This document shows positions 9,007 through 63,643 of a DNA stretch of 64,000 bases, piece after piece; position 1 is the stretch's first letter; every line of letters begins with the position of its first letter. The translations under genes were made by a program, and so were the position numbers. Source of the stretch: Flavobacteriales bacterium (GTDB lineage: Bacteria; Bacteroidota; Bacteroidia; Flavobacteriales_G; Salibacteraceae); NCBI GenBank assembly GCA_018660685.1, contig JABJJW010000014.1:1-64000 (forward strand), written 5' to 3'. The notes beneath the pieces were generated by a model. It was given only the letters and a program-made list of their open reading frames with translations, ran no database searches and was not told the origin of the DNA.

Positions 9007-11580
9007 TTATCGCTGAATGGTAACTGGTACATCGAGCCATTCGTTTCGAAGTCCAACTCGAATAATGTACTGTCCGTTGCTCAAATTATCCGGAATACTC
9101 AGCTCCTGAATATGACTTCCATTTGGCGTTAAGGTCATGACTCGCTTGCCATTCATATCCATCATATTGATCTTGAGAGGAGTTTCCTTCGACTTATCGA
9201 GCTGAAGAAATATGCTCTCGCTCGCTGGGTTAGGATACACTGCTAGGCCATCCTCTGCAACTATTTCTTCGACGTTGGTAGGCCATATTTTAGCTTTAGC
9301 ATCATCCTCACCATCACAACCACTATTGTCTGTAACAGTGCAGGTATAAGTACCAGAGATATACACGTCAATGGTTTGGGTAGTTGCCCCTGTATTCCAT
9401 AAATATCCTGAGAATCCGGCTGGTGCCTTCATAGTGACTGGAGCTAGACCCGAACCGCCCGTGACATTCGGTTCTGGGTTTGGTACCACAGCTGTAATAG
9501 ACGCTGTGCCAACTCCTTCGCAATCATTGAAATCCGTCACCGTGACGCTTACAGTGGTTACCCCACTCACTTGAAATACCTGTCCTGTGGATCCATCATG
9601 CCAGAGATAGCTTTGATAACCCCCACCGGCGTTGAAGAGAAAAGTGGCCCCATCACAAAGAACTGTATCTCCCATTCCAACTATTGGATTTGGATTTACC
9701 TCTAAGTCCACTTCGTCTGACCCTTCACATCCGTTGCTATTTGTAACTGTTACAGAATAAATACCTGGAGTCGTAACTGTAATCATCTGCCCCGTTGCTC
9801 CTGTGCTCCAATCATAGAGTGCGAAGCCGGAACCTGCGTCCAAAACATAATCGCCACAAACGGTCGAATCTGGACCTAGGTCAACGACTGGCGCTGGATT
9901 GAATACGAATGTCGCAGCACCAGAAACGCTTCCACTGTCTGTAGGGCAACCTGTAGAGTCTTGAAGATAGCTAATCGTATAAGTTCCTGATTGTGTAATT
10001 GGAGCCGTGAATGGACTTGAAACTCCAGATACATATGTTGGTGAAGTGCCATTTGTGTATTGGACATTCCAAGGTCCAAAACCTGTAAAATTGAAAGTCA
10101 ACGTTGCAATATCACCTTCACAGAAATTTCCTCCTCCCGACACAGAGCCTCCCGGAATCCCATACATAGTCATTACTCCTGAGATCGAGTCATTTGCAGA
10201 ATTCACATCCCCAGTATTATCGACGTAGGCATCGAGCGTCCATGTTCCGCCTTGAGAGGTATTAAAAGTGAGCAGATTGATTGTATCGCAACCACACACT
10301 GGAAGTGTATCCGAATAAGTGGTTGTAACACTGGTACCGTTAGTATCTAAAACTATATCGAATCCTGTTTTGGGATCAACACTAATATTGCATATTACCG
10401 CAGTAATATCATCCGCGCTGCTTCCACAAGCACTGTCCTGATAGGTCAAAGTCGTGAGGGCTATGTCATTCGACTCTGCTACCAAGATGTCATCAAATCC
10501 ATACCCTTCTTGAGTCGCAGCGCCATCTGCTGAAAGTACATATCGGAAGAAGAGTGATGTATCTCCTTGATAGGCACTCAGACTATGCTTATAATAGGTC
10601 CAACCCGAGTTCGTCCCAGTCCATCCGTGTGAACTGTTAAGTGCATTAAAGGAACTTATCGATGAGCTATTGAACCAAGGTGAAGGTGAGCTTGACGAAC
10701 CCAAAGTTGACCATGTAGCACCACTATCTGTTGAAACCTGCATGGTCGCCCCATCATCTGTCGTTTCAATATCAAAAATTCCTTGAAATCTAACTACTGG
10801 ATCTTCTAGTGGTGAGAGATCAAACTCTGGGCTATTTACATAACTGAACTCATCATTGTTATAGTCTCCGTCCAAATCAGTAACCCACGCATTGTCCTCT
10901 TCACCTGCCGCGCTAATGAATGTATTGTCTGGCTCTCCAAGCTCCCATGAGTTTAGGATTCCACCATCAGACCAAGATCCGTCGCCATTTTCAAAACCTT
11001 CGCAGTATGGATACTCGCTTACCTCTGCCGGTGTATAATATACTTCGATCCGAGAAATACTTCCACTACCTTGATAGCCAACTCCCCAAATTAAAGGAGC
11101 TTGATTACTGACAATACTACTTTGATAACCAAATCTTTGGATTGAAACTGTGTAGCCTAAGATGCTCGAATTAAATGATCCCGTTCCATAGGCATTCGAA
11201 TTATTTGATCCGTTTACCGTGGCTCCAAATATTCCGATAGTATCACCTGCGTTGATCAGAACATTACAATCGTAAATCTGACCATATGGTGCACTGTTCG
11301 TGTATAAGTATGTATCAAAATTCGACGACTGCGAACCAAAGGCAATTGGCATGGGGTCATTGATCTTCACTATTTGAAAACACTGATTGCCATTATTCGT
11401 ACTTCCTACAGGTACTCGAAGACCAACAATTTTAAACGACACAGGAGCTACGAACCAAAACCCTCGTACTGCTCCAGTGTAGGTTGATCCAATCCCCGGC
11501 ATCGGCATTACTTGTTGAGACCAAAGTTGGGTTGGAACAAGTAAAATTGAAAGAAAGAATAGAACGTAGAGCTTTTTCAT
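9007..11580 (-). CDS. T9SS type A secreted multidomain protein, array member 1
   Basis: 857 aa from the ATG at 11580, which gives the signal peptide MKKLYVLFFLSILLVPTQLWSQ; an ATG 36 nt further out gives an unlikely leader. Domains in order are: an N-terminal module (about 23-190) containing RGFWFVAPVSFKIVGLRVP; a jelly-roll-like module (about 195-370) with an Asp-rich DLDGDYNNDE segment; a CARDB-like region; four Ig-like modules each with a Cys pair (for example TVCGDY and NGCEG); and a T9SS sorting domain starting AVYPNPAS. It should be exported by Sec and then across the outer membrane by T9SS. It has no catalytic motif and is probably an adhesin or surface structural protein. About 70-80 % of the core from residue ~195 to the sorting domain is shared with the two genes upstream. 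Confidence 0.88.
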   Translation of the reverse strand: MKKLYVLFFLSILLVPTQLWSQQVMPMPGIGSTYTGAVRGFWFVAPVSFKIVGLRVPVGSTNNGNQCFQIVKINDPMPIAFGSQSSNFDTYLYTNSAPYGQIYDCNVLINAGDTIGIFGATVNGSNNSNAYGTGSFNSSILGYTVSIQRFGYQSSIVSNQAPLIWGVGYQGSGSISRIEVYYTPAEVSEYPYCEGFENGDGSWSDGGILNSWELGEPDNTFISAAGEEDNAWVTDLDGDYNNDEFSYVNSPEFDLSPLEDPVVRFQGIFDIETTDDGATMQVSTDSGATWSTLGSSSSPSPWFNSSSISSFNALNSSHGWTGTNSGWTYYKHSLSAYQGDTSLFFRYVLSADGAATQEGYGFDDILVAESNDIALTTLTYQDSACGSSADDITAVICNISVDPKTGFDIVLDTNGTSVTTTYSDTLPVCGCDTINLLTFNTSQGGTWTLDAYVDNTGDVNSANDSISGVMTMYGIPGGSVSGGGNFCEGDIATLTFNFTGFGPWNVQYTNGTSPTYVSGVSSPFTAPITQSGTYTISYLQDSTGCPTDSGSVSGAATFVFNPAPVVDLGPDSTVCGDYVLDAGSGFALYDWSTGATGQMITVTTPGIYSVTVTNSNGCEGSDEVDLEVNPNPIVGMGDTVLCDGATFLFNAGGGYQSYLWHDGSTGQVFQVSGVTTVSVTVTDFNDCEGVGTASITAVVPNPEPNVTGGSGLAPVTMKAPAGFSGYLWNTGATTQTIDVYISGTYTCTVTDNSGCDGEDDAKAKIWPTNVEEIVAEDGLAVYPNPASESIFLQLDKSKETPLKINMMDMNGKRVMTLTPNGSHIQELSIPDNLSNGQYIIRVGLRNEWLDVPVTIQR

Positions 11581-11662
11581 AATGAGTGAATTTGTAGACA
11601 AATATTGATAATTCATCTATGAAAGTCAACTGGTCAAAGGCAATACTTCAAATATCACTGGG

Positions 11663-14269
11663 TTATTCGGTAACCACTGTCAATACAGCTTCGAGGATAT
11701 CCGAATCCGTAATTCCCTTAATAATATAGTTCCCTGAAGGTATATGATCGGGAAGAGACAAGACTTGATTTAATTTTGTGTCCACCGGAACATAAGACAT
11801 CACCAGAATTCCGTTAATATCCACCATTTCGATACGCGTAATTGGCCCTACATCGGTCGAGCTCATTACCGTAATCTGAGATGAGGCGGGGTTCGGGTAA
11901 ACTGCAAAACCCTCCTGGGCAACTATGTCTTCGACACCGACAGGCCAAATCTTTGCCTTTGCATCATCGGAGCCTTCACAGCCATTATTGTCGGTGACTG
12001 TACACGTATAAGTTCCTGAAACATATACGTCGATCGTCTGTGTCATTGCGCTGTTGTTCCATAGATAACCGCTGAATCCAGCAGGAGCGCTCATGGTTAC
12101 TGGCGCAAACCCAGATCCTCCTGTTACATTCGGTTCTGGATTAGCGACAACCGCAGTAATCGACGCTGTACCAATTCCTTCACAGTCATTGAAGTCCGTG
12201 ACTGTCACGCTAACAGTTGTTACTCCACTAACTTGGAACACTTGTCCGGTGGAGCCATCATGCCATAAATAGCTCGCATATCCACCTCCTGCATTGAACA
12301 GGAATGTACTTCCGTCGCAGAGGACGGTATCATTCATTCCAACAACTGGATTAGGATTAACTTCTAGATCGACCTCATCTGACCCATCGCAGCCGTTAGT
12401 ATCGGTTACTGTGACAGAATAAATGCCCGGTGATGTAACTGTAATCATTTGAGTCGTTGCTCCCGTGCTCCAATCATAAACTGAGTAGCCTGAACCAGCG
12501 TCTAGTTGATAATCTCCGCAGACTGTAGAGTCTGGCCCTAGATCAATTACCGGTGCAGGATTAAATACAAATGTTGCTTCTCCCGTGACACTTCCACTGT
12601 CCGTTGGACAACCTGTTGAGTCTTGCAAATAACTAATGGTGTAGGTTCCCGATTGGGTGATTGGCGCCGTGAATGGTGAGGTCACTCCAGCGACATACGT
12701 CGGGGTAGACCCATTGGTATATTGCACGTTCCATGGACCAATTCCTGTGAAGTTCATTGTTAAGGTGGCCACATCACCTTCACAGAAGTTACCACCGCCG
12801 GAAACAGAACCACCAGGAATACCATACATGGTCATCATTCCAGTTAAGGTGTCATTTGACGAATTAACGTCTCCAGTGTTATCAATAATCGCTTCTAATT
12901 GCCAAACTCCACCTTGAGAAGTATTAAAACTTAATAATTCCATGGTGTCGCAAGCACACACCCCAAGGGTATCGCTGTATGTATTTGAGACTGTCGTCCC
13001 ATTAGTATCTAGGTCGACATTAAATCCTGAAAGGGGAATAACACTGTTGTTACAGATGACTCCAGAAATTACGTCAACTGTACTTCCACATTGCGAATCA
13101 GGGTAAATCAATTCTACAATCATTAAGTCATTGGATTCTGCGACGATGATATCGTCGAAGGCAAATCCTTCTTCGGTTACTGCCCCATCAGCGCCCATGT
13201 ACCAACGAAACATAATGTTAGTATCCCCAGCATAAGCGGAGACGCTATGCGCCATTTGAACCCAAGAAGACGAACCAGACCATCCATGCAAACTGTTCAG
13301 CAGATTGAACGATTCGACATTGGAAGTGTTAAACCAATTGCCAGGTGAAGACGTGGATCCTAAAGTTGCCCATGTAGTTCCACTATCAGTCGACACTTGA
13401 AAGGTGGCTCCATCATCTGGGGTCTCAATATCATATGTGGCCATAAATCTAATTTCTGGATCGATCAAGTCTGTAAAATCAAATCGAGGACTACCCACGA
13501 AGCTTCCTTCGTCATTGTTATAGTCTCCATCCACATCGGTAACCCAAGCATGCGTGGAACTTGAGGCATTTGCGATGAAGGTGTTGTTGGGCTCGTCATG
13601 CTCCCATGTGCTCAAAACCCCTCCTGTTGCATATTGTCCGTCGCCATCTTCAAAGTCTTGACAGTATGGGAATTGATCCACATAGGGTAGAGAATACACC
13701 ACGCGTCCGTTGTATTGACGAACTGAGAACCCAGGACTAGGAGAGTTTCCTCCATATCCAACATTCGTCCCATTTGTTACTGTGATCACACCATCCGTAA
13801 ATGACGTTGCGTTTCCAGTTGCATATGTCGTATAAGCGACTCCGCTTCCTGAGGCCATCCCAATGTAAAAACCGTATTCCTCGCCACCGGGAATCAACAA
13901 ATTCAAATCAAAAGGAATCGGCTGAATCGCCGCTCCGGCGAATGCAGTTCCGACAGGTGTAGTTGAAGTTGGCCCCAATTCTGTCCACCCATTTGTCGAA
14001 TTAATGGTGGGAGCTCCGTTTATCGGAGAAGTGTTGTACCAAATAGAAATATTTAATGCCGAAGCCGAATAGAAAGTGCACCACAACGTATCAATGATCA
14101 CTGCTTGGTTTGCTTCAACGTTGAACGTTATCCCTCCAGACCCGTTGTTAGTAGTCAAAGGTGGACTCGTTGTTACCGATCCTGCTTGAGAATAGGTTTG
14201 AGAGGAAAAAAGAATCAACAATCCAACCAAAAGTATGGCTGGATAATAAGTAGGTCGAAGTGACTTCAT
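11663..14269 (-). CDS. T9SS type A secreted multidomain protein, array member 2
   Basis: 868 aa with signal peptide MKSLRPTYYPAILLVGLLILFSSQTYSQ. The N-terminal module (about 29-200) is unrelated to that of members 1 and 3. It has FNVEANQAVIIDTLWCTFY and LLIPGGEEYGFYIGMA, resembling the beta-sandwich modules often found at the front of Bacteroidota surface proteins. From YCQDFEDGDG onward it follows the common plan: jelly-roll-like module with DVDGDYNNDE, CARDB-like region, four Ig-like modules, T9SS sorting domain from AVYPNPAS. The gene has its own short upstream region and no terminator on either side, so the array may be co-transcribed. Function is unknown; surface adhesion or matrix is the likeliest class. 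Confidence 0.87.
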   Translation of the reverse strand: MKSLRPTYYPAILLVGLLILFSSQTYSQAGSVTTSPPLTTNNGSGGITFNVEANQAVIIDTLWCTFYSASALNISIWYNTSPINGAPTINSTNGWTELGPTSTTPVGTAFAGAAIQPIPFDLNLLIPGGEEYGFYIGMASGSGVAYTTYATGNATSFTDGVITVTNGTNVGYGGNSPSPGFSVRQYNGRVVYSLPYVDQFPYCQDFEDGDGQYATGGVLSTWEHDEPNNTFIANASSSTHAWVTDVDGDYNNDEGSFVGSPRFDFTDLIDPEIRFMATYDIETPDDGATFQVSTDSGTTWATLGSTSSPGNWFNTSNVESFNLLNSLHGWSGSSSWVQMAHSVSAYAGDTNIMFRWYMGADGAVTEEGFAFDDIIVAESNDLMIVELIYPDSQCGSTVDVISGVICNNSVIPLSGFNVDLDTNGTTVSNTYSDTLGVCACDTMELLSFNTSQGGVWQLEAIIDNTGDVNSSNDTLTGMMTMYGIPGGSVSGGGNFCEGDVATLTMNFTGIGPWNVQYTNGSTPTYVAGVTSPFTAPITQSGTYTISYLQDSTGCPTDSGSVTGEATFVFNPAPVIDLGPDSTVCGDYQLDAGSGYSVYDWSTGATTQMITVTSPGIYSVTVTDTNGCDGSDEVDLEVNPNPVVGMNDTVLCDGSTFLFNAGGGYASYLWHDGSTGQVFQVSGVTTVSVTVTDFNDCEGIGTASITAVVANPEPNVTGGSGFAPVTMSAPAGFSGYLWNNSAMTQTIDVYVSGTYTCTVTDNNGCEGSDDAKAKIWPVGVEDIVAQEGFAVYPNPASSQITVMSSTDVGPITRIEMVDINGILVMSYVPVDTKLNQVLSLPDHIPSGNYIIKGITDSDILEAVLTVVTE

Positions 14270-14349
14270 GCGAAAATATTTTCGAACAAGATATTAATTC
14301 ATCCAGAGAGTTTACAAACTAGTCGATAAAATTAAGCCTCTGTCGAAGC

Positions 14350-16899
14350 TTACTTCACTACGCTAAGCATCTCCTCTTTGATCAGACCATCTTTAGAGAT
14401 TCTAATAATGTACTGACCTGCAGAAACAAGCTCGCCGATCGTAAACAGCTGTTCAGATGAACCATTAGGAACGATACTCTGAACAAGCTTCCCATCCATG
14501 CTTAAAAGCTGGATTGACTCGGGTGCAACAAATGCATCCGAAAACACCAACGTCAACTGATCTGATGCCGGGTTCGGGTACACTGCAAAACCATTTTCAG
14601 AGGCGATCTCATCAACGTTCAGAGGCCAAATTTTAGCCTTCGCATCATCTTCTCCTTCACAACCGCTAGCGTCTGTGACCGTACAGGTATAAGTTCCGGA
14701 CACATATACATCGATGGTTTGAGTTGTCGCACCTGTGTTCCATAAATACGCCGAATACCCTGCCGGCGCCTTCATCGTTACTGGAGCCAATCCTGAGCCA
14801 CCCTTTACATTCGGATCTGGGGTAGGAACCACTGCCGTAATAGACGCTGTCCCAACTCCCTCGCAGTCATTAAAATCCGTGACAGTCACACTCACGGTTG
14901 TTAATCCACTAACCTGGAAAACTTGTCCCGTAGACCCATCATGCCATAGGTAGCTTTGATAACCACCCCCTGCGTTAAATAAGAATGTTCCTCCTTCGCA
15001 TAGAACGGTGTCTACGATTCCTACGATAGGATTTGGATTCACTTCCAGGTCCACTTCGTCTGACCCTTCGCAGCCAAATCCATCAGTAACCGTTACGGAG
15101 TAAATTCCTGGTGTTGTTACAGTCAACGTCTGGGTTGACGCACCCGTACTCCAATCGTAAAGTGCGAAGCCCGATCCTGCGTCGAGAAGATAATCACCGC
15201 AGACTGTTGAATCTGGTCCAAGGTCAACTACAGGGGCCGGATTGAATACGACTGTCGCAGAACCTGAAATGCTTCCACTGTCGGTGGGGCATCCGGTCGA
15301 ATCTTGTAAATATGTAATCGTATAAGTTCCAGACTGAGTCACATTGGCTGTAAACGGAGTCGTAACTCCAGCCACGTACGTTGGTGTTGTCCCATTCGAA
15401 TACTGAAGATTCCATGGAGTAGCACCTGTTAAGTTGAACGTAAGCTGAGCAATGTCTCCTTCGCAGTAATTACCTCCTCCTGTAATCGATCCACCTGGAA
15501 TTGCCCAAGCAGTCTTTGTGGTGATAATTGAATCATTCGCTGAATTTACATCACCTGTGTTGTTTACATAAGCTGTGACATTCCATGTGCCTCCAGCCGC
15601 TGTGTTCATGTCTATGAGTTCAATCGTATCGCAACCACAAATCGCGAGAGTGTCACTATAATTGATTGTGGCCGAAGTGCCATTGGTATCAATGACCATA
15701 CTGAACCCAGTCTTTTCCTCAATACTGACGTTACAAATCGAGGCTAAAATCGTACTCGATGATGTACCGCAAACGCTATCCGCGTAGAACAATGAGGTTA
15801 AAGAAATGTCATTGGATTCTCCGATTATAATATCGTCAAATGCAAAACCTTCTTCAGTTACGGCACCATCAGCAGATATTACATATCGGAAGAAAACCGA
15901 GGTGTCAGCAACATATGAAAGGAGGCTGTGCCGCATGTCTGACCAACCGCTGCTGGAACCTGTCCAGCCATGACTGCTATTAAGCGAATTAAAAGAAGAA
16001 ATGGTCGAACTGTTGTACCAAGGTGACGGTGAACTGGCCGAACCTAGCGTAGTCCACGTGAATCCACTATCCGCAGATAGTTGAAATGTTGCCCCATCGT
16101 CCGTAGTCTCAATATCATGATTTACTTGAAACCGAACCATTGGATCAACCAGTGCGGTTAAATCAAATTCAACGCTTTGTACACTACTAAGCTCGTCGTT
16201 GTTGTAGTCGCCGTTCAAATCCGTGACCCAGCACTTATCACCAGAAGCTGCCGAACTTATGTTAGTATTATTAGGTTCGCCATGTTCCCATGTCGGTAAT
16301 ATCCCAGCAACATTGAAATTTCCATCATCATCTTCAAAACCTTGACACCAAGGAAATTCATCGACAATCAATGTACTGTAATACATTTCAATCCTTGAGA
16401 TTTGGTAGGCATTTTCGCTCCAAATATTTTGAGGGTTTGTAGTCTGCAAATTGTATTGCATTCCCATCCTGGAAAGGGTCAAATTCTCACCCAAAATTTG
16501 CGTCGACCAGTTGGCCTGACCATAAGAGTTCGTTCCTCCACGAGATCCCATGACGGCAATCCAATCTCCTTGATAAATGGGGATACTGACCGGCAACACA
16601 TTATTTCCAGCAATATTTTGAAACAATGCCAGTGTGGTAAAATTATTTGTGGTGGTGGGATAGGCCAGAGGTGCTCCTGAATTAAACCTCAGCACGGCAA
16701 CGCTCTGGTTTGCGGTGCTCGCCGTAGTTGGAACTCGTAATCCAACAATTAGAAAATCAACTGGCGCCTGGAAATAATACCCCCGTGTATTGCAACAATA
16801 AGTTGCCGCTTGAGATGGCAGCTGCATCAATGTTTGACTTTTGAATGCATCGGTGAAAAGAAAAATGGAGAAAGCTGTGAGGAGTAGTGCTTTTCGCAT
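14350..16899 (-). CDS. T9SS type A secreted multidomain protein, array member 3
   Basis: 849 aa from the ATG at 16899 (signal peptide MRKALLLTAFSIFLFTDAFKSQ); an ATG 27 nt upstream would add a charged leader and is less likely. The N-terminal module has TRGYYFQAPVDFLIVGLRVP, clearly homologous to member 1, plus a distinctive adjacent cysteine pair (TYCCN). The rest is the shared plan: jelly-roll-like module with DLNGDYNNDE, CARDB-like region, four Ig-like modules with Cys pairs, and a sorting domain from AVYPNPAS. It is the most upstream of the three and diverges from dnaX across 147 nt. Role unknown; secreted to the cell surface. Confidence 0.87.
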   Translation of the reverse strand: MRKALLLTAFSIFLFTDAFKSQTLMQLPSQAATYCCNTRGYYFQAPVDFLIVGLRVPTTASTANQSVAVLRFNSGAPLAYPTTTNNFTTLALFQNIAGNNVLPVSIPIYQGDWIAVMGSRGGTNSYGQANWSTQILGENLTLSRMGMQYNLQTTNPQNIWSENAYQISRIEMYYSTLIVDEFPWCQGFEDDDGNFNVAGILPTWEHGEPNNTNISSAASGDKCWVTDLNGDYNNDELSSVQSVEFDLTALVDPMVRFQVNHDIETTDDGATFQLSADSGFTWTTLGSASSPSPWYNSSTISSFNSLNSSHGWTGSSSGWSDMRHSLLSYVADTSVFFRYVISADGAVTEEGFAFDDIIIGESNDISLTSLFYADSVCGTSSSTILASICNVSIEEKTGFSMVIDTNGTSATINYSDTLAICGCDTIELIDMNTAAGGTWNVTAYVNNTGDVNSANDSIITTKTAWAIPGGSITGGGNYCEGDIAQLTFNLTGATPWNLQYSNGTTPTYVAGVTTPFTANVTQSGTYTITYLQDSTGCPTDSGSISGSATVVFNPAPVVDLGPDSTVCGDYLLDAGSGFALYDWSTGASTQTLTVTTPGIYSVTVTDGFGCEGSDEVDLEVNPNPIVGIVDTVLCEGGTFLFNAGGGYQSYLWHDGSTGQVFQVSGLTTVSVTVTDFNDCEGVGTASITAVVPTPDPNVKGGSGLAPVTMKAPAGYSAYLWNTGATTQTIDVYVSGTYTCTVTDASGCEGEDDAKAKIWPLNVDEIASENGFAVYPNPASDQLTLVFSDAFVAPESIQLLSMDGKLVQSIVPNGSSEQLFTIGELVSAGQYIIRISKDGLIKEEMLSVVK

Positions 16900-17032
16900 G
16901 GCTAGTTTGATTAGTGATTCAAACAAATATTACCATTAATTCTCATTCTTCCTAATTTAACAACTGAAGCAGAGGAATTTAGATCTTAATAAATATTCGT
17001 GACACAATATCCTTAAAACTCAGATCAGATTT

Positions 17033-44869: not shown

Positions 44870-45973
44870 CTAGTGAGTCACTGAGATGCTCTTCGATGTG
44901 ATTTTGTCGCCTTCGATCAAATTCATGAGGTAAATACCCGCAGGATATTCACTAACATCCAGCACTAATTTGCTGCTTTGCTCATCTAGATTCATTGTGG
45001 AAACAAGCTGACCATCGGTAGAATGAATATTGATGGTGGCGTCTTTTACAACATCTGCGAATTCTATATTCAATAAATCAGACGCCGGGTTAGGATACAC
45101 CACGAATCGATTAAGATTATTGAACTCCGCTATTGTGGTCGGCCAAACTAAGTCGCTACCCCAAGGTCTTTCATAGTTATCGGCAGAATAGACTCGCTCA
45201 CCGATAGCGGATTGATAGACTTCCTTATTAACTAAGCTCTGCATCCACATGATGACGTGTAGGTCATCAAATTCTTCCACAGAATGCTCCGTGCTATTGT
45301 CTATCGGAGAATTCGCATTCGGCGGCAATCTGTAGTCTCCTTGAAATACGTAAGTCGTATCATAGTCAATGACATCGCCTGAATCAAATGTTGCAATGAT
45401 CAATTCCCCCATCGCTTCTGGAAGCATTTTCTTGAAGACATTATGGAATTCGACCTCGCCATTTGTCTTTCTGTTTGCCGTCGTAAGCTTCTCAATAATT
45501 GGGACAAATAGTCTTTGGCCACCGTCATTGTAACTCTGAAGAAATTCGATCCTAGCCTTAATGGCAACAGATTGAGATCCTTCATCGATCATGTATCGCA
45601 GGAACATTTTAACCCCTGAGGCTTCAAGTAAGTCATCATCAACGCTAGAAGTGGTGAAGTTGGAGTAAAACGTTTCGACTGCATTCGGGAAAAATGCAGG
45701 CACGCCATTAACGCCATAGAAATTTCTCCTCGCATTGCCTTCAGCCGAGTAATATGGATCACCGGTCCCAGGCCAACTCATTTGGTATTTAATAACTGCG
45801 ATCTCGCCGTCATATTCTTCAAATATTGGAACGAGCCAATCGTTGGCTGGCTTACAAGGTGGGCATGTAGAGCTTGAGAAGACTTCGTACAGCGGTGTCT
45901 TAGGTACGTGAGATTGGGCCAATGTGATGGCGACAATTCCTAGAAATAAAAGAGTGGTGTAAATATTTTTCAT
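44870..45973 (-). CDS. T9SS-secreted thioredoxin-like protein with CPPC site
   Basis: 367 aa from the ATG at 45973 (signal peptide MKNIYTTLLFLGIVAITLAQ). A thioredoxin-like N-terminal domain has the redox motif CPPC at 37-40, within FSSSTCPPCKP. The later GVNGVPAFFPN provides the cis-proline equivalent. A middle beta-rich region follows, then a T9SS type A sorting domain from VVYPNPAS. It resembles Omp28-related surface proteins of Bacteroidota. A thiol-active protein carried to the cell surface could cross-link or reduce other T9SS cargo, but that is inference. A weak promoter (TATCTTTA, 46006-45999) lies about 26 nt upstream. Confidence 0.85.
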   Translation of the reverse strand: MKNIYTTLLFLGIVAITLAQSHVPKTPLYEVFSSSTCPPCKPANDWLVPIFEEYDGEIAVIKYQMSWPGTGDPYYSAEGNARRNFYGVNGVPAFFPNAVETFYSNFTTSSVDDDLLEASGVKMFLRYMIDEGSQSVAIKARIEFLQSYNDGGQRLFVPIIEKLTTANRKTNGEVEFHNVFKKMLPEAMGELIIATFDSGDVIDYDTTYVFQGDYRLPPNANSPIDNSTEHSVEEFDDLHVIMWMQSLVNKEVYQSAIGERVYSADNYERPWGSDLVWPTTIAEFNNLNRFVVYPNPASDLLNIEFADVVKDATINIHSTDGQLVSTMNLDEQSSKLVLDVSEYPAGIYLMNLIEGDKITSKSISVTH

Positions 45974-46106
45974 GCGATTCTTTGAAATTTCGAGCAAGTA
46001 AAGATAACTTTATGAGATCTAAAAACATCAAGTGTCTATAGATTGAAGTCTTAACGCATGAATAAATCAAGGGCTTAACACACTTTGGTACGATCTTAGT
46101 ATTACA

Positions 46107-47864: not shown

Positions 47865-49333
47865 TTAAAACTCAATTTATAACTGCGCTCCTACTTTTAG
47901 GAGCGCATTTTTCATTCGCCCAGAATGAAGTGGATGCTTTAAACCTATCAAGAGAAGAGGTCACAGGTTCTGCAAGATTCATAGCACTCGGGGGAGCTTT
48001 TACGTCATTGGGAGGTGACTTTAGCGGTTCTGCGATTAATCCAGCCGGTGTGGCTGTGTTCAGAAATTCAGAGTTCTCCCTAACCCCGGCTTACCACACT
48101 CATATTTCTTCTTCCGATTACTATGGCACGAGTACAATTGGAAGTAAGACAAATTTCAATTTTGGCTCACTTGGTCTAGTAGCAGTTCGAAACCTCACTA
48201 AAACAGGAAAATGGAAGAGTTCAGCCTTTAGTGTCGGTATCAACCGAACATTCAATTATAATCAGTCGACCACAATACAGGGAAGCGGGATTCCTACGTC
48301 CATTCTTGACGATTATGAAAACATTCTTAGAGAGAATAATGTAACCTGGACAGAGTTTAGCTCGGATTATCCGGCATACCCATTCGATCTATTTCTCGCT
48401 TGGAACAACTATCTAATTGACACAACTTCCGGTGGAGTTGAATTCTTCAATGCAAGCGGACAGCTCCCAAATGATCAGACCTATCTTTCAGAAATCACAG
48501 GTTCAAAACGAGAGACCGTTTTCAATTTTGGAAGCAATTACGACGACAAATGGTATTTCGGAATAGGCCTCATATTCTCTAGAAATTCACGGACTTTTCA
48601 ATACGCGTACCGAGAAACTTATGACGACGCCGACACCACCACTTCACTCTCACAATTCACCTATGAATTCGCCGAGAAGATTAATGGAAATGGCACAGCG
48701 ATGAACATCGGGGCCATTTATAGACCGATCGAACCTCTTCGAATTGGCTTTTCATTTAAGTCCCCGACCTTTTATTCTTTGGACATTGAATACTCATCTA
48801 GAAACGATGCAGTTTTCGGTGACACATCACTCTCTACCAACTCACCTCAAACTGGGTTTTATGAATTTAGACTAACCACGCCGATGCAAGCTAATCTTGG
48901 CGTTTCCTATGTGTTCCAGAAACATGGCCTTCTAACGGCAGACATCGAATTTGTTGACTACACCGGAATCCGAATGTTTGGAATAAGTGACGGGTATTCT
49001 TTTTCAAAAGAAGAATCAAATATCAAGACCTATTTAACGCCTCAAATCAATACGAAACTCGGTGGTGAATATAGATTGACTTCGAACTTTAGTTTACGCG
49101 GAGGATTTGCCCACTATGGCGATCCTTTCAACAAGAAATCATTGGGTACTGATGCTTTCAATCTGTACAGCTTTGGTCTGGGATATAGAACCGATCTTTT
49201 TTATCTAGATGGGTCATATCAAATGAAGACAAGTGCTGATTCAGACTTTATCTACGATGCTTCGTTGGTTGATGCCTATGCAGTCGAAAGAACCGATCAT
49301 CGATTTGCAGTCACGTTTGGTTTTAAGTTCTAA
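47861..49333 (+). CDS. OmpP1/FadL-family outer-membrane transport protein
   Basis: 490 aa with signal peptide MIKTQFITALLLLGAHFSFAQ. An outer-membrane beta-barrel of the FadL/TodX group: the N-terminal plug region has RFIALGGAFTSLGGDFSGSAINPAGVAVF, of which SAINPAGVAVF is the family hallmark. The rest alternates aromatic-ended strands and finishes with a terminal aromatic residue (VTFGFKF). It would passively transport hydrophobic molecules such as long-chain fatty acids. ATG overlaps the stop of the Ser/Arg-rich lipoprotein by 4 nt, so co-translated. 3' end overlaps the M1 peptidase by 4 nt. Confidence 0.92.
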   Translation: MIKTQFITALLLLGAHFSFAQNEVDALNLSREEVTGSARFIALGGAFTSLGGDFSGSAINPAGVAVFRNSEFSLTPAYHTHISSSDYYGTSTIGSKTNFNFGSLGLVAVRNLTKTGKWKSSAFSVGINRTFNYNQSTTIQGSGIPTSILDDYENILRENNVTWTEFSSDYPAYPFDLFLAWNNYLIDTTSGGVEFFNASGQLPNDQTYLSEITGSKRETVFNFGSNYDDKWYFGIGLIFSRNSRTFQYAYRETYDDADTTTSLSQFTYEFAEKINGNGTAMNIGAIYRPIEPLRIGFSFKSPTFYSLDIEYSSRNDAVFGDTSLSTNSPQTGFYEFRLTTPMQANLGVSYVFQKHGLLTADIEFVDYTGIRMFGISDGYSFSKEESNIKTYLTPQINTKLGGEYRLTSNFSLRGGFAHYGDPFNKKSLGTDAFNLYSFGLGYRTDLFYLDGSYQMKTSADSDFIYDASLVDAYAVERTDHRFAVTFGFKF

Positions 49334-51732
49334 TCCTTGGAAAGGATGAATTTTCCATGGGCCAACTCGTCTTTGTGCTGTATCACATAGTGATAAACTC
49401 CCTCTGGAAATTCTGAGAAATCTTCTTCGGAATTCATGCCAATCTCCTTTTGAAATTTCAAATTTCTTCCTAAACTATCAAATACAGAAAGTTTAGCTGT
49501 TGGCCACTCCTGCAATTGGAACGTGACTTTTCCGCTACTCGGATTGGGAAAGACCTCGACTAGAGCGGTCCTCTTCTCGTTCATACCCAGCGCGCTCTGG
49601 TCCTGATTTGCCAGAACGTAGTCACCTGGTTTGATTTTACTGAGTTGCATAATTCCTAAGGCGTTGTTGGATAGACCCAGAATGTTCTTTTCGTAGAATT
49701 CGTATTCTTCCCAATCATGAGACGAACTTGATCGATGCAGTAAGATTAGACTGTCCTCTGTCTCGCCGACTAGGTCAATGTCCAAGTATCCAGCAGAACC
49801 ACTGCTCCTCCCATCGTAGAAAAAGGTTGCGCTCATTTCTACATTCTCCAAATCAATTCCGCCTACTGTCCAATAATGGTAACTTGACATCGTAAATGCC
49901 TTAGTAGACCACTGTTTGATAGGATCTGGATACGACCAGACGTGATCAAAATAGACCAAGGCAGAGTCGCTGTTAGAATTAACTTCAACATCCCAAAACA
50001 TATTGTCCAAATTCAAATTCCCAATCTCCTCAATAACGACTCGATCCCGTGTCCTAGCCTGCGCCATTTGATTCTCATCGTAAAGAGCCACATATGCTGG
50101 ATCCAATGATGTGCTGACAGTTGATTCCGCAAATGAGCCGCTCATCTCTACTTTACCGCTTTGAGAATTCCAATCTTCGTCATAAACGGTGTAGTACACT
50201 GGCACTCCTGAGTGGAAATCCTCGCGTCCTTTCAATTTTTGCTGGAAATACATGGTGAGGGAAAAATCGTCCCCATCAGGCACACTTGAAAAAGAGTCAA
50301 GTACGACAACATTATACCCACCCGAGAATACCCAGTCTCCAAAAAAGTGACTTAAATCTTCTCCCGTATGCTCGCTGAAATATTTCTCCATCGAATCGGA
50401 GGAAACAGCCGCCATCTGATAGTGATCCATGAAGCCTTCACAGGCATCGAAAAAATCATCATCACCAAGGTAGCCTCGCAAGTTATGTGCGACCAATGCT
50501 CCCTTTTTATAAACATGATCTCCATACACATATTCGTGGGGTTGTCCTGAAACTGGTCGATAAAACTCTTCGAAATGGTGTCCATACTGTAGCATATATC
50601 TCAAGTCATCAAGCATATGCTCTTCGTAGGTTTCTCTTCCATACACATGCTCATCGAATAGGTATTCTGAAAATGAAGCCCAACCTTCATTAATCCACAT
50701 ATCACCATCAGTCTGACATGTCACATTATCACCCCACCACATGTGAGCTAATTCATGGCTCATCAGGCTCTCATTCCCAAGTCCACCACCGGCTACCGCA
50801 TATATCGGATACGTGATATTGGTCGCATGTTCCATCGCTCCAGAATTGAATGGAACCAAGCTGTATCCTACTTTATCAAATCGATAAACACCGTAGGCAT
50901 TTTCGAATGAATTGATAGCATCGTCTAGGTGGATGAATGAACTCTTAGCTTTCGATGTGTCGGTTGCTTTTGCATGAACTTGAACTGGAGTAGATCCAAA
51001 AGGCCCGGTATAATTCCATTCTAAAATCTCATAATTAGCAACGGCGACATTGGCCAAATAAGACGGGATCGCCTGATCCAGGCTCCAGTTAAATGTTTGG
51101 GTCCCATCGAGATTATCGACCACTCCATCGAGTATGCCGTTGCACGAAGCCCTTTTCAAAGTATCAGTCGTGATGTGAAAGATATATGTGTTCCGTTCGA
51201 TGAAGTTATCAAAGCAGGGAAACCAAATTCTGCCATAGCTATGCGGATCATCAGCAAATCCAACTCCCAAATTCCAAGCATAACCGCTATTGAAGTAAAA
51301 CCCACCCCAACCAGATGCATCTTTCATCGGGCTTCCATGGTAATAAATCGTCAGACTATATTCTTGATTCAAATCGAAATTTTGATCAAAATCAACGAGC
51401 AGTTGACTGTCTCGGGGTTGGAATCCTACAACACCTTCACCTACCACACTGTCTGTCGTCAAGCCTTCGAAGTCAAAAAGAATTCGCTTCGCATCATTCT
51501 TGAGAGCCTCAAACTTGATCTCGGCGTGTCCGCTGATTTCAGAATTACTCATATCAGTGAAATCTAGGCTTAGTTCAATTTCTATGATATCAACACTGTC
51601 GCTTCTAAAATCTTCTATTTGAAGCCTTTTACCCTCTATGTTCCCTTTGTACTTAGAACAATACTGAGCAGATAGTTGGACCCCAACGAAAAGAAATAAC
51701 GTGATCGACAAAAATTTCGCGAATTGACTCAT
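49330..51732 (-). CDS. T9SS-secreted M1-family zinc aminopeptidase
   Basis: 800 aa with signal peptide (FLSITLFLFVGVQLSAQ). The exopeptidase motif is GAMEH (298-302). The zinc motif is HELAH (326-330) with the third ligand Glu349 in NEG, 18 residues between His330 and Glu349, as in gluzincins. A C-terminal helical domain and a beta region follow, then a T9SS type A sorting domain from VEVFPNPSSGK. It is predicted to act outside the cell on peptides, feeding amino acids to the organism. It diverges from the 520-aa unknown gene across 181 nt where I saw no clear signals. Confidence 0.93.
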   Translation of the reverse strand: MSQFAKFLSITLFLFVGVQLSAQYCSKYKGNIEGKRLQIEDFRSDSVDIIEIELSLDFTDMSNSEISGHAEIKFEALKNDAKRILFDFEGLTTDSVVGEGVVGFQPRDSQLLVDFDQNFDLNQEYSLTIYYHGSPMKDASGWGGFYFNSGYAWNLGVGFADDPHSYGRIWFPCFDNFIERNTYIFHITTDTLKRASCNGILDGVVDNLDGTQTFNWSLDQAIPSYLANVAVANYEILEWNYTGPFGSTPVQVHAKATDTSKAKSSFIHLDDAINSFENAYGVYRFDKVGYSLVPFNSGAMEHATNITYPIYAVAGGGLGNESLMSHELAHMWWGDNVTCQTDGDMWINEGWASFSEYLFDEHVYGRETYEEHMLDDLRYMLQYGHHFEEFYRPVSGQPHEYVYGDHVYKKGALVAHNLRGYLGDDDFFDACEGFMDHYQMAAVSSDSMEKYFSEHTGEDLSHFFGDWVFSGGYNVVVLDSFSSVPDGDDFSLTMYFQQKLKGREDFHSGVPVYYTVYDEDWNSQSGKVEMSGSFAESTVSTSLDPAYVALYDENQMAQARTRDRVVIEEIGNLNLDNMFWDVEVNSNSDSALVYFDHVWSYPDPIKQWSTKAFTMSSYHYWTVGGIDLENVEMSATFFYDGRSSGSAGYLDIDLVGETEDSLILLHRSSSSHDWEEYEFYEKNILGLSNNALGIMQLSKIKPGDYVLANQDQSALGMNEKRTALVEVFPNPSSGKVTFQLQEWPTAKLSVFDSLGRNLKFQKEIGMNSEEDFSEFPEGVYHYVIQHKDELAHGKFILSKD

Positions 51733-60532: not shown

Positions 60533-63500
60533 ATGAACAAAAAGTTACTCTTTTATGGTGTTGCAACTCTAATGATAGCAGCACTCACTTCAGGACTGTA
60601 TCTCTCTAAAGATCAGCAAGTTTACAAAGCGCGAACATCTTCGGATGACGCTGAACCAGGTAATATGGGCTGGGCACAAATTGATCTCAGAACTGGAGAA
60701 TACGACCCTTCGCTTCGGAACGAAGTTTTCAACCTCATAAAGAATAAAGGAAGCCGAGGCGATCTCGGATTGGAATGGGAAAATCGAGGCCCAGATAACG
60801 TTGGCGGACGCACGCGAGCAATTATTGAGCTCTTCGGAAAGCCCGACACGTTGATCGCTGGTGGAACATCAGGAGGGCTATTTGTTAGCTACAACGGTGG
60901 CGGAAATTGGCAACCCCACACGCAATTCGTGAATCAGGATATGAGCTCAAGCATTATTGCTTCTATCCATCAAGACACGAACTCAGGTAAAATATATGTC
61001 GGTACCGGCTCTAGCTTTGACAAGTTTGCGAATTCCGCAGATATTGCCTGGGCAGGATACGGAATTTTTGTTTCCAACGATGAAGGCGTAACCTTCACGC
61101 ATTTGGAATCAACGACTCCGGATAATCGATATGACGATGCAGGTCAACCGTGGCTTGCAGTAAATCGAATTCAGACTAACAGTCAAGGTCACATTTTTGC
61201 GGCAACGGAAGTTGGATTACACATGTCCACCGATGGAGGCGATACATGGATAAATCCAGTATATATCGATCCAGCCTTTTCAATTAACGTCAACGGCAAA
61301 TGCGCCGATGTTGCGGTTGGAGCTGACGATAAAGTACTTACAACCTATCTAGGAGGAACGACATTTTTGTCATCTGATGGAGGCACTGACAAATCATTTG
61401 TACAAATAAATGACAATGGACTCCCTCTCAGCAGATCAAGATCTGTTGCGGTGATTGCTCCATCGAATCCAGACATTATGTACATCATATATGTTGAAGG
61501 TGATGGATGCATGGATGGCGTTTACAAGACCACGAACGGAGGTAGTAACTGGGAAAAAATACTTGAGCCATTTGATGAGTTTGATCCATTTAATGGAGCT
61601 AACTTCTGTCAAGGCGTTTATGACCTCGCACTTGGAGTGTCGCCTAAAGATCCAAATTGCATATTCATCGGAGGATTGTCCTTATGGCGATTTGACGGTA
61701 GCTTGACGAGAGTTGCAAGTGAATTTGGCTCACCGCCTTTTCAGGATGTGTTGGAAAATTATGTCCATGCCGATAAGCACTTCTTCTACTTCAGTCCTAA
61801 TAAGAAAAGCAGACTATACTGTACGACTGATGGCGGAATCTCTGTGTCTGAAGATAAAGGAGATACTTGGACTGGGCTGAACAAAGGATACGTGACAACT
61901 CAGTTTTATGGTGTTACACATACGGGTGATGCAGGTCTTATCATCGGTGGTACTCAGGATAACGGAACGCTAGCAGTACTCGGTGATAATGATTTTGACC
62001 CACACATTGGATACCAAGTATCCGGCGGAGATGGTATCGATTGTGATATGTCTCAGATTGTGCCGATCCTGTTCTCTACTTCACAAAACGGAGTCGTGTA
62101 TAGAACCGATGTAAGCGCAGCGGAAGATGGAGGGAGCAATTTCCCTCTGGCAATCCTCAGCTTCAATGGAGGGCCTTTCCACACTGTGGTTAAACTATGG
62201 GAAAACATTGATGATTCCACCAGCCAAAATGTTGTTGAATTTTCAGTTGAACCTTTGGATATTGCTATTGCTACTGGAAATGGAATTCTACGAACATTTA
62301 ATGAAACGGTAACTCCAATTCAAGCGGCTGCCGAAATAATTAAGAGTTCGATCATCGTCTATTCTGGTACAGAAGAATTGACCATTGACACTGATGGATC
62401 CACTCTCATCGGAGATGGAACTGGAAGTATCACTTTTAACTCAGATGGATCAATGTCCATCTCAGTAACATTTGACAACGCTCCAGCTGAGAACTCAAAT
62501 GTCTTCGTGAACTTCGAAGAACACTATGATGCTAACAGCGTCTTGGTGCTCGAGAGCAATAACATGAAGTCTCTTAAAGGTGCCTACGAATTTGAGCACA
62601 GACTTGAAAATTCACTTAATCCAGGCGATGTATTAATAGTCAGAGATCCTGTTCAATCAGTATTACTGAGTACGGGGGATGCACAAGGACCAAACTCCGC
62701 TGGAGGATCAATTCGGATGTACCGAAATGTGCTAAACGCTCAAGCTCTCCCACCTAATCCAATAGGAATTAGTGGCATAAGCGGATCGATCACTTGCATC
62801 GAATATTCAATGGATGGAAACGTTGCATTTGTGGGAACTACATCGGGAGTTTATAGAATCACGGGATTAAATGATGTGTACACTCAAGATGACGCCGATG
62901 ACTTCATCACAGTCAAGAATCTTTCGATTGCCGGAATGTCTGGACCATACACTGGTGTTGCAATTGACCCAATGGACAACAATCGATTGGTCGTCACTGC
63001 CGGTGGTTACGGTTTACAAAACCGCGTGGCATTTACGACCACTGCACTCTCAGGAACACCAATCTTTACGAATGTCCACGGAGACTTACCAGCATTTCCA
63101 ATCTACGACGCTGAATTCAACATGAATGAGCCGAACATGGTCATACTTGGAACTGAATTCGGATTATATGCGACTGCTGACATTACCGCAGGCTCAGTTG
63201 TATGGAGTGACGAGAACGATGAAGTTTCTTACGTTCCTACGTATGATGTTCGTCAACAACACTTAGGTTGGGACCAAGCTCGAAACACCGGAATGATGTA
63301 CGTTGGTACTCACGGTCGAGGAATGTGGAGATCAACATCTATGGTGGGAATTCCTGAATTTGGAGACGCACCAAATACGAACGATGCAATTTCTGACTTC
63401 AATGTTTATCCTAATCCTGTCAACTCAGAAGGACGAATTGATTTTGAAGCATCATTCACTGGAAATGTTCAATTCAAAATCTATGACATGAACGGAAGAG

Positions 63501-63643
63501 CCGTTAAAGCATGGGAAGATCGAGTGAGCAGTGGACAGAATGTCGTTAGCTTCAATACGCGAAGCTTACATTCTGGCGCATACTTCATCACCGCTGAAGC
63601 AGGCCAAACGAAACAAGTAAGCAAGTTCTTGGTATTTAAATAA
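60533..63643 (+). CDS. T9SS-secreted beta-propeller (BNR/sortilin-like) protein
   Basis: 1036 aa with an N-terminal membrane or signal segment (LFYGVATLMIAALTSGLYLS). The region from about 80 to 950 contains repeated Asp-box-like units: SYNGGGNW, SNDEGVTF, STDGGDTW, TTNGGSNW, SEDKGDTW. These are typical of sialidase/sortilin-like propellers, interrupted by a ~200-residue insert around 580-780. The C-terminus is a T9SS type A sorting domain from NVYPNPVN. Such proteins occur widely among Bacteroidota secreted cargo; carbohydrate or protein binding is likely, and no sialidase catalytic triad can be confirmed. It is followed by a strong terminator. Confidence 0.86.
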   Translation: MNKKLLFYGVATLMIAALTSGLYLSKDQQVYKARTSSDDAEPGNMGWAQIDLRTGEYDPSLRNEVFNLIKNKGSRGDLGLEWENRGPDNVGGRTRAIIELFGKPDTLIAGGTSGGLFVSYNGGGNWQPHTQFVNQDMSSSIIASIHQDTNSGKIYVGTGSSFDKFANSADIAWAGYGIFVSNDEGVTFTHLESTTPDNRYDDAGQPWLAVNRIQTNSQGHIFAATEVGLHMSTDGGDTWINPVYIDPAFSINVNGKCADVAVGADDKVLTTYLGGTTFLSSDGGTDKSFVQINDNGLPLSRSRSVAVIAPSNPDIMYIIYVEGDGCMDGVYKTTNGGSNWEKILEPFDEFDPFNGANFCQGVYDLALGVSPKDPNCIFIGGLSLWRFDGSLTRVASEFGSPPFQDVLENYVHADKHFFYFSPNKKSRLYCTTDGGISVSEDKGDTWTGLNKGYVTTQFYGVTHTGDAGLIIGGTQDNGTLAVLGDNDFDPHIGYQVSGGDGIDCDMSQIVPILFSTSQNGVVYRTDVSAAEDGGSNFPLAILSFNGGPFHTVVKLWENIDDSTSQNVVEFSVEPLDIAIATGNGILRTFNETVTPIQAAAEIIKSSIIVYSGTEELTIDTDGSTLIGDGTGSITFNSDGSMSISVTFDNAPAENSNVFVNFEEHYDANSVLVLESNNMKSLKGAYEFEHRLENSLNPGDVLIVRDPVQSVLLSTGDAQGPNSAGGSIRMYRNVLNAQALPPNPIGISGISGSITCIEYSMDGNVAFVGTTSGVYRITGLNDVYTQDDADDFITVKNLSIAGMSGPYTGVAIDPMDNNRLVVTAGGYGLQNRVAFTTTALSGTPIFTNVHGDLPAFPIYDAEFNMNEPNMVILGTEFGLYATADITAGSVVWSDENDEVSYVPTYDVRQQHLGWDQARNTGMMYVGTHGRGMWRSTSMVGIPEFGDAPNTNDAISDFNVYPNPVNSEGRIDFEASFTGNVQFKIYDMNGRAVKAWEDRVSSGQNVVSFNTRSLHSGAYFITAEAGQTKQVSKFLVFK

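Follow-up and report, generated by a model that had tools for sequence, protein, structure and literature searches.

A tandem array of candidate type IX secretion surface proteins with distinct heads on a shared stalk in Flavobacteriales bacteria

RESULTS AND DISCUSSION

The three-gene array and its domains

The window is a 64,000-nucleotide stretch of a Flavobacteriales bacterium genome (GenBank assembly GCA_018660685.1, contig JABJJW010000014.1). It contains three neighbouring open reading frames with a common core, m1, m2 and m3, as the first-pass annotation had described (Table 1). Internal ATG codons at 11580 and 16899 are the likely starts of m1 and m3, respectively. The array is flanked by housekeeping genes. 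Judging from the translations, rpsF, rplI and an aconitase gene lie to one side of it and dnaX to the other.

Table 1. Features of the array in the window
Feature	Coordinates	Strand	Description
m1, T9SS type A surface protein	9007..11616	minus	869-aa ORF; head A1-MAM-linker-4 Ig-sorting domain
m1 head A (A1 subtype) and short linker	11011..11514	minus	
m1 InhA-like MAM domain	10474..11022	minus	
m1 linker domain of about 100 aa	10165..10473	minus	called CARDB-like in the first-pass annotation
m1 stalk, four Ig-like domains	9277..10164	minus	
m1 type A sorting domain	9052..9240	minus	
m2, T9SS type A surface protein	11663..14269	minus	868-aa ORF; head B-MAM-linker-4 Ig-sorting domain
m2 head B	13670..14185	minus	AlphaFold model m71f69bb2e3a6, PHR/Cwp84-lectin-like beta-sandwich
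m2 InhA-like MAM domain	13136..13681	minus	
m2 stalk, four Ig-like domains	11939..12826	minus	
m2 type A sorting domain	11705..11902	minus	
m3, T9SS type A surface protein	14350..16926	minus	858-aa ORF; head A3-MAM-linker-4 Ig-sorting domain
m3 head A (A3 subtype)	16354..16833	minus	AlphaFold model md67dbbb46314, PHR-like beta-sandwich
m3 InhA-like MAM domain	15817..16365	minus	
m3 stalk, four Ig-like domains	14620..15507	minus	
m3 type A sorting domain	14383..14583	minus	

The domain earlier described as jelly-roll-like corresponds to the Pfam family InhA-like_MAM (PF20773). It scored above the gathering cut-off of 26.9 bits in all three proteins (28.2, 31.8, and 27.4 bits in m1, m2 and m3), with partial coverage of the profile. 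Ig1 matched Ig-like_POM152 in Pfam. However, the CARDB-like name of the linker domain was not borne out, and we dropped it: Pfam gave no CARDB match in m1 to m3 at E values up to 10. The proposal that these are type IX secretion system (T9SS) surface proteins fared better. The type A sorting domain TIGR04183 of NCBIfam scored 39.2, 33.2, and 38.1 bits in m1 to m3 against a cut-off of 23, and Por_Secre_tail of Pfam was above its cut-off in each. The window genome also encodes a full-length PorU (C28:63320-66631; 1277 bits against a cut-off of 420), and the type A sorting domain model matches at 106 places in it. Because of this PorU and these matches, m1 to m3 look like ordinary T9SS cargo as regards sorting domain and PorU. 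Searches of the three proteins against Pfam and NCBIfam found no catalytic family. The window encodes three more T9SS type A cargo proteins, at 44870-45997, 49330-51732, and 60533-63643, with sorting domains at 44885-45100, 49345-49554, and 63404-63634.

We then compared m1 to m3 domain by domain. The N-terminal parts were 32% identical between m1 and m3, 25% between m1 and m2, and 18% between m2 and m3. Identity was 61 to 67% in the MAM domain, 46 to 63% in the linker domain, 74 to 90% in Ig1, 79 to 93% in Ig2 to Ig4, and 37 to 38% in the C-terminal sorting domain. Strong identity is thus confined to the four-Ig stalk (74 to 93%). The core had been said to match almost residue for residue; this holds for the stalk but not for the rest of the core, at only 46 to 67%. 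The sorting domains do diverge after the stalk, as noted before. Synonymous codons also differ freely in the core. The mismatch at fourfold-degenerate sites was 0.68 in Ig1 to Ig4 (about 0.67 to 0.71) and 0.71 in the MAM domain, against 0.717 expected at saturation from codon use. The only exact run of at least 20 nt shared by window copies was 21 nt long. Recent gene conversion in the window genome is therefore excluded, because the fourfold sites are near saturation.

Head families and their stalks

In sequence searches, the m1 head found the m3 head at an E value of 3e-24, so the two N-terminal modules are homologous, as had been reported. It did not find the m2 head, and the m2 head gave no match to either of the others at E values up to 1. 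We call the m1 and m3 type head A and the m2 type head B. With hhalign, heads A and B aligned in register over 111 to 137 columns at E values of 8e-4 to 2e-3, but with a probability of just 12 to 24%. A third type, head C, occurs in the arrays of relatives (see below) and also on stalks that by eye resemble beta-helices; profile comparison gave no signal between it and head A or B. The three window heads had no significant Pfam match (best E value, 0.07), and nothing significant was found in the head parts of heads A and B and of a head C protein in Pfam and NCBIfam.

The heads recur on other stalks, something that the first-pass annotation had suggested looking for in related genomes, and they do so within the window genome itself. 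The m1 head also found a 578-aa protein with an SprB-repeat stalk and a type A sorting domain. The m2 head found two proteins of 1050 and 1154 aa encoded in tandem (E values of 3e-17 and 2e-12); both carry PKD repeats and have a sorting domain of type B. Heads are therefore carried on three stalk kinds and in both sorting classes, as the SprB/type A and PKD/type B proteins show. In one relative (G025), the SprB-stalk head A gene is apparently broken by stops in the head (L133:7903-8400). Another (G014) has a 5315-aa frame with an internal head A at aa 1288 to 1439 (L128:1282-17229), and this frame also weakly matches the laminin G (LamG) head of G037 described below.

AlphaFold models of the m3 and m2 heads, for which the input alignments combined window and collection sequences, had pLDDT values of 75.6 and 78.8 and pTM values of 0.76 and 0.81. 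Both modules are predicted to be beta-sandwiches like those of PHR domains and the Cwp84 lectin-like domain. The head A model matched PHR domains with Z scores of 8.8 to 9.7 over 117 to 126 residues, and the head B model with 10.4 to 11.0 over 132 to 139 residues. For each model, PHR domains came first or near first, followed by a phi812 baseplate protein and the Cwp84 lectin-like domain. Overall, the matches had Z scores of 7 to 11 and Foldseek E values above 1e-3. We took matches with Z scores below 8 (viral capsids, a clostridial enterotoxin C-terminal domain, and CBMs) as common beta-sandwich resemblance.

The first-pass annotation had called the m2 head unrelated. This stands by ordinary sequence search; however, the predicted structures of the m2 and m3 heads match the same PDB folds. 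On these models, a single beta-sandwich fold that has diverged deeply probably underlies both head A and head B, and common ancestry is possible. The predicted shared fold would weaken "unrelated" for the m2 head, but not "swapped."

The array in related genomes

Within the order, 42 genomes were searched for the MAM/linker core and for the heads, and gene order was taken from fetched regions. In a Salibacteraceae-like genus of Flavobacteriales, the array has a single syntenic position, constantly between dnaX and the aconitase side in congeners, and comprises one to at least four copies. Read from the dnaX side, the head order is A3, B, A1 in the window genome; A3, B in G027; and C, A3, A1 in G017. 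It is also C, A3, A1 in G026 up to the contig end; another contig of G026 carries one more C, at the aconitase end. Four genomes have a single gene, with head A3 in G020, G028, and G025 and head C in G022. In G037, from another genus, the syntenic single gene has a Laminin_G_3 head. The composite order across genomes is C-A3-B-A1-C.

Head families A1, A3, B, and C are slot-specific and common to several species. In the head tree, the m1 head forms one group with the heads from the third slot in G026 and G017 (support 100/99), and the m3 head lies in the A3 clade (94/89). The m2 head joins that of the second G027 gene, together with two G012 heads of the PKD type (100/100).

Stalk homogenisation

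Heads cluster by slot, but Ig domains cluster by genome. Ig1 to Ig4 are 78 to 100% identical within genomes, versus 52 to 69% between same-head orthologues of different genomes, and the within-genome value is the higher one in all four multi-copy genomes. For the MAM domain, identity is 61 to 70% within genomes versus 58 to 76% between same-head orthologues. In G017 and G026, the MAM domain groups by slot and the Ig domains by genome; the MAM domains of the window genome group by genome (97/95) despite their older heads.

In G027, a 7-contig assembly, genes 1 and 2 share 941 nt with 2 mismatches, at aa 470 to 782 only. This tract is the Ig stalk and ends just before the sorting domain. Fourfold mismatch in the stalk is 0.01. 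Outside the tract, DNA identity is about 37% in the heads, 60% in the MAM domains, and 50% in the tails. At the level of sequence, the tract is direct evidence for recent gene conversion of the stalk.

Within each of three genomes (the window genome, G017 and G026), the Ig proteins are alike, and their genes are saturated at fourfold sites (0.68 to 0.71). Since silent sites are saturated in three of the four multi-copy genomes, either conversion there is old and constraint strong, or co-selection of the stalks contributes. For the window genome, with its saturated stalk copies, we infer conversion from the relatives. The first-pass annotation had attributed the stalk identity to protein selection and not to recent conversion. 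It was right that the window genome shows no recent conversion. However, selection as the sole cause is contradicted by the within-genome excess of Ig identity in all four genomes and by the G027 tract. In the set of papers searched, none dealt with tandem T9SS arrays with conversion.

The single array gene of G020 (L109:8098-10707) resembles slot 1 of G027 in its front and slot 2 in its tail, where DNA identity is 0.78 versus 0.47 in the comparison with the G027 slots. This is suggestive of a fusion by deletion through the stalk, but it is possibly a repeat collapse in the assembly. We set the fusion aside because such a collapse could yield the same gene.

Head exchange at the PKD locus

The tandem PKD-repeat genes with type B sorting domains lie at L024:8130-14748 (C22) in the window genome and at L114 to L124 in relatives. 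The two genes hold fixed places, and their stalks fall into slot groups (slot 2 clade, 99/99). However, each slot group contains both head types. The heads are A,B in G017, G020, G024, G027, and G028; B,A in G018 and G019; B,B in the window genome; and A,A in G037. The paired heads of the window genome and G037 are mostly 70 to 97% identical as proteins, but identity falls to 24 to 47% past the head. Because slot-wise stalk clades mix heads and identity drops past the head, the sequences indicate that heads move between stalks here, and that A and B have been exchanged between orthologous slots among congeners. The PKD locus thus appears as the mirror image of the MAM array: heads move or homogenise, and stalks stay distinct.

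Interpretation

What can be read from the DNA (the domain architecture, the tie of heads to slots, the homogenised stalks, the exchanged heads, the sorting signals, and the PorU gene) points to surface-anchored binding proteins with exchangeable heads, diversified by tandem recombination. We regard this reading as a whole as probable. Each gene would encode a filament-like surface protein. A signal peptide would take it to the periplasm, and the C-terminal type A domain would route it through the type IX system. PorU would cleave off that domain and anchor the chain on the outside of the cell, for display. The Ig/linker/MAM part would hold the N-terminal head, as an exposed tip, at a distance from the cell, where the predicted beta-sandwich would bind a ligand, with a glycan or surface polymer as the likeliest kind. 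Diversity, with a presumed selective benefit, would arise by recombination between tandem paralogues and with other surface genes. Stalk DNA would be copied between neighbours by gene conversion. Heads would keep their slots over species time, yet exchange or copying could take place where head and stalk meet, and moved heads would recur on PKD stalks with type B sorting, on SprB stalks with type A sorting, and on beta-helix stalks.

A glycan or polymer ligand is our first guess, because of the predicted lectin-like fold and the LamG head in the same slot. However, the PHR/lectin-like fold also occurs in protein-binding domains, and the usual carbohydrate site is absent from the Cwp84 lectin-like domain according to its authors (PMC4089489). 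The heads probably set what the cell sticks to. The observation of the first-pass annotation is confirmed and its interpretation partly supported: a modular head family on a common stalk is what we found, while binding and adhesion are presumed functions.

How much recombination must be assumed can be asked of each part. Plain old tandem duplication, with point mutation only, weakly constrained heads and tails, and strong purifying selection on the Ig domains, would suit the saturated synonymous sites throughout the window copies and the quick divergence that is commonplace for surface-exposed N termini. However, it does not account for Ig domains, unlike MAM domains, being closer between same-genome paralogues than between same-head orthologues, nor for the fresh G027 tract, the same heads on unrelated stalks, and the head-stalk discordance at the PKD locus. 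It is already disfavoured, and we hold it to be very improbable. Shared selection, on stalks that pack together or with a common partner, might instead be the main force keeping same-genome stalks alike. It would explain proteins that are alike yet saturated at fourfold sites in three genomes, but it cannot produce the near-identical DNA of G027. As the main cause it seems unlikely, and it may add to conversion. A stronger contender is that head differences in the array reflect differential loss from ancestral slots C, A3, B, A1, and C, so that only stalks move there. The head order fits loss from one such order, and heads group by slot; against this, heads A and B are mobile at the PKD locus and have reached other stalks, and the syntenic G037 gene has a LamG head. 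We give this account a real, though lesser, chance of being correct. It is compatible with most of the exchangeable-head reading and departs from it for the array alone.

The function could also differ. Instead of adhesins, these may be accessory proteins of the surface, such as components of protease complexes or of complexes that degrade polymers, in which the heads would target the enzymes. The MAM-type domain takes its name from InhA metalloproteases, and CBM-like folds are among the weaker fold matches. However, m1 to m3 lack a match to any catalytic family, and their neighbours are housekeeping genes. We consider this role rather doubtful. A working system of diversification within populations, in which ongoing conversion through the uniform stalk switches head/sorting-domain or export-class joins, strikes us as a long shot. 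If it did operate, cells would hold a limited stock of heads in the tandem array and at the PKD locus, and switching would give ligand or antigen variation directed against hosts, particles, or phages.

For surface proteins of Bacteroidota built from exchangeable heads and stalks, the two loci offer a clean, phylogenetically readable case. One appears to homogenise the stalk while heads stay distinct, and the other to homogenise or swap heads while stalks stay distinct. Head families A, B, and C are uncatalogued, two of them share a predicted lectin-like fold, and heads cross between type A and type B sorting classes. The proteins are specific material for asking to what these uncultured Flavobacteriales attach, and they offer a natural pointer to the joints of head and stalk that are viable.

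Comparison with known systems and further relatives of head B

Like other T9SS type A surface proteins (TIGR04183/Por_Secre_tail), m1 to m3 have a C-terminal type A sorting domain in a genome with PorU. They differ in forming a tandem array with exchangeable heads and a homogenised stalk, and in that neither head A nor head B has a match among Pfam and NCBIfam families. CshA/CshB NR2 and the PAD family combine a beta-sandwich adhesive tip, diverse stalk domains, a C-terminal anchor, and domain shuffling (PMC10952558). Our proteins resemble them in tip, stalk, anchor, and shuffling, with binding at the tip predicted here. However, the evidence for exchange here comes from tandem arrays and from orthologous slots, and CshA_NR2 and other PAD structures were absent among the fold matches listed for both head models. 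The best structural matches of both were PHR/Cwp84 folds (PDB 3gbw, 3no8, 3hwj, 4ci7, and 4d59), at 7 to 17% sequence identity and without sequence-level membership. The authors of the Cwp84 study likewise found MYCBP2 as a fold neighbour (PMC4089489).

Vomp and BadA are trimeric autotransporters, secreted by the type V route. These Bartonella proteins include tandem paralogues with head, repetitive stalk, and anchor, and recombination of stalk repeats has been proposed to reshuffle the surface proteins (PMC10936683). The likeness lies in the tandem head-stalk-anchor paralogues; the domains are unrelated.

A collection scan with head B of the PKD locus as the query gave further head B relatives (L144, L148, L149, L152, and L154). 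The members tested had no Pfam or NCBIfam match in the head part. Two copies lie in one 2602-aa frame and another inside a 4158-aa frame, and these heads also adjoin HYR repeats and an autotransporter domain. The MAGs that encode them are labelled Bacteroidales, Acidobacteria, and Alphaproteobacteria.
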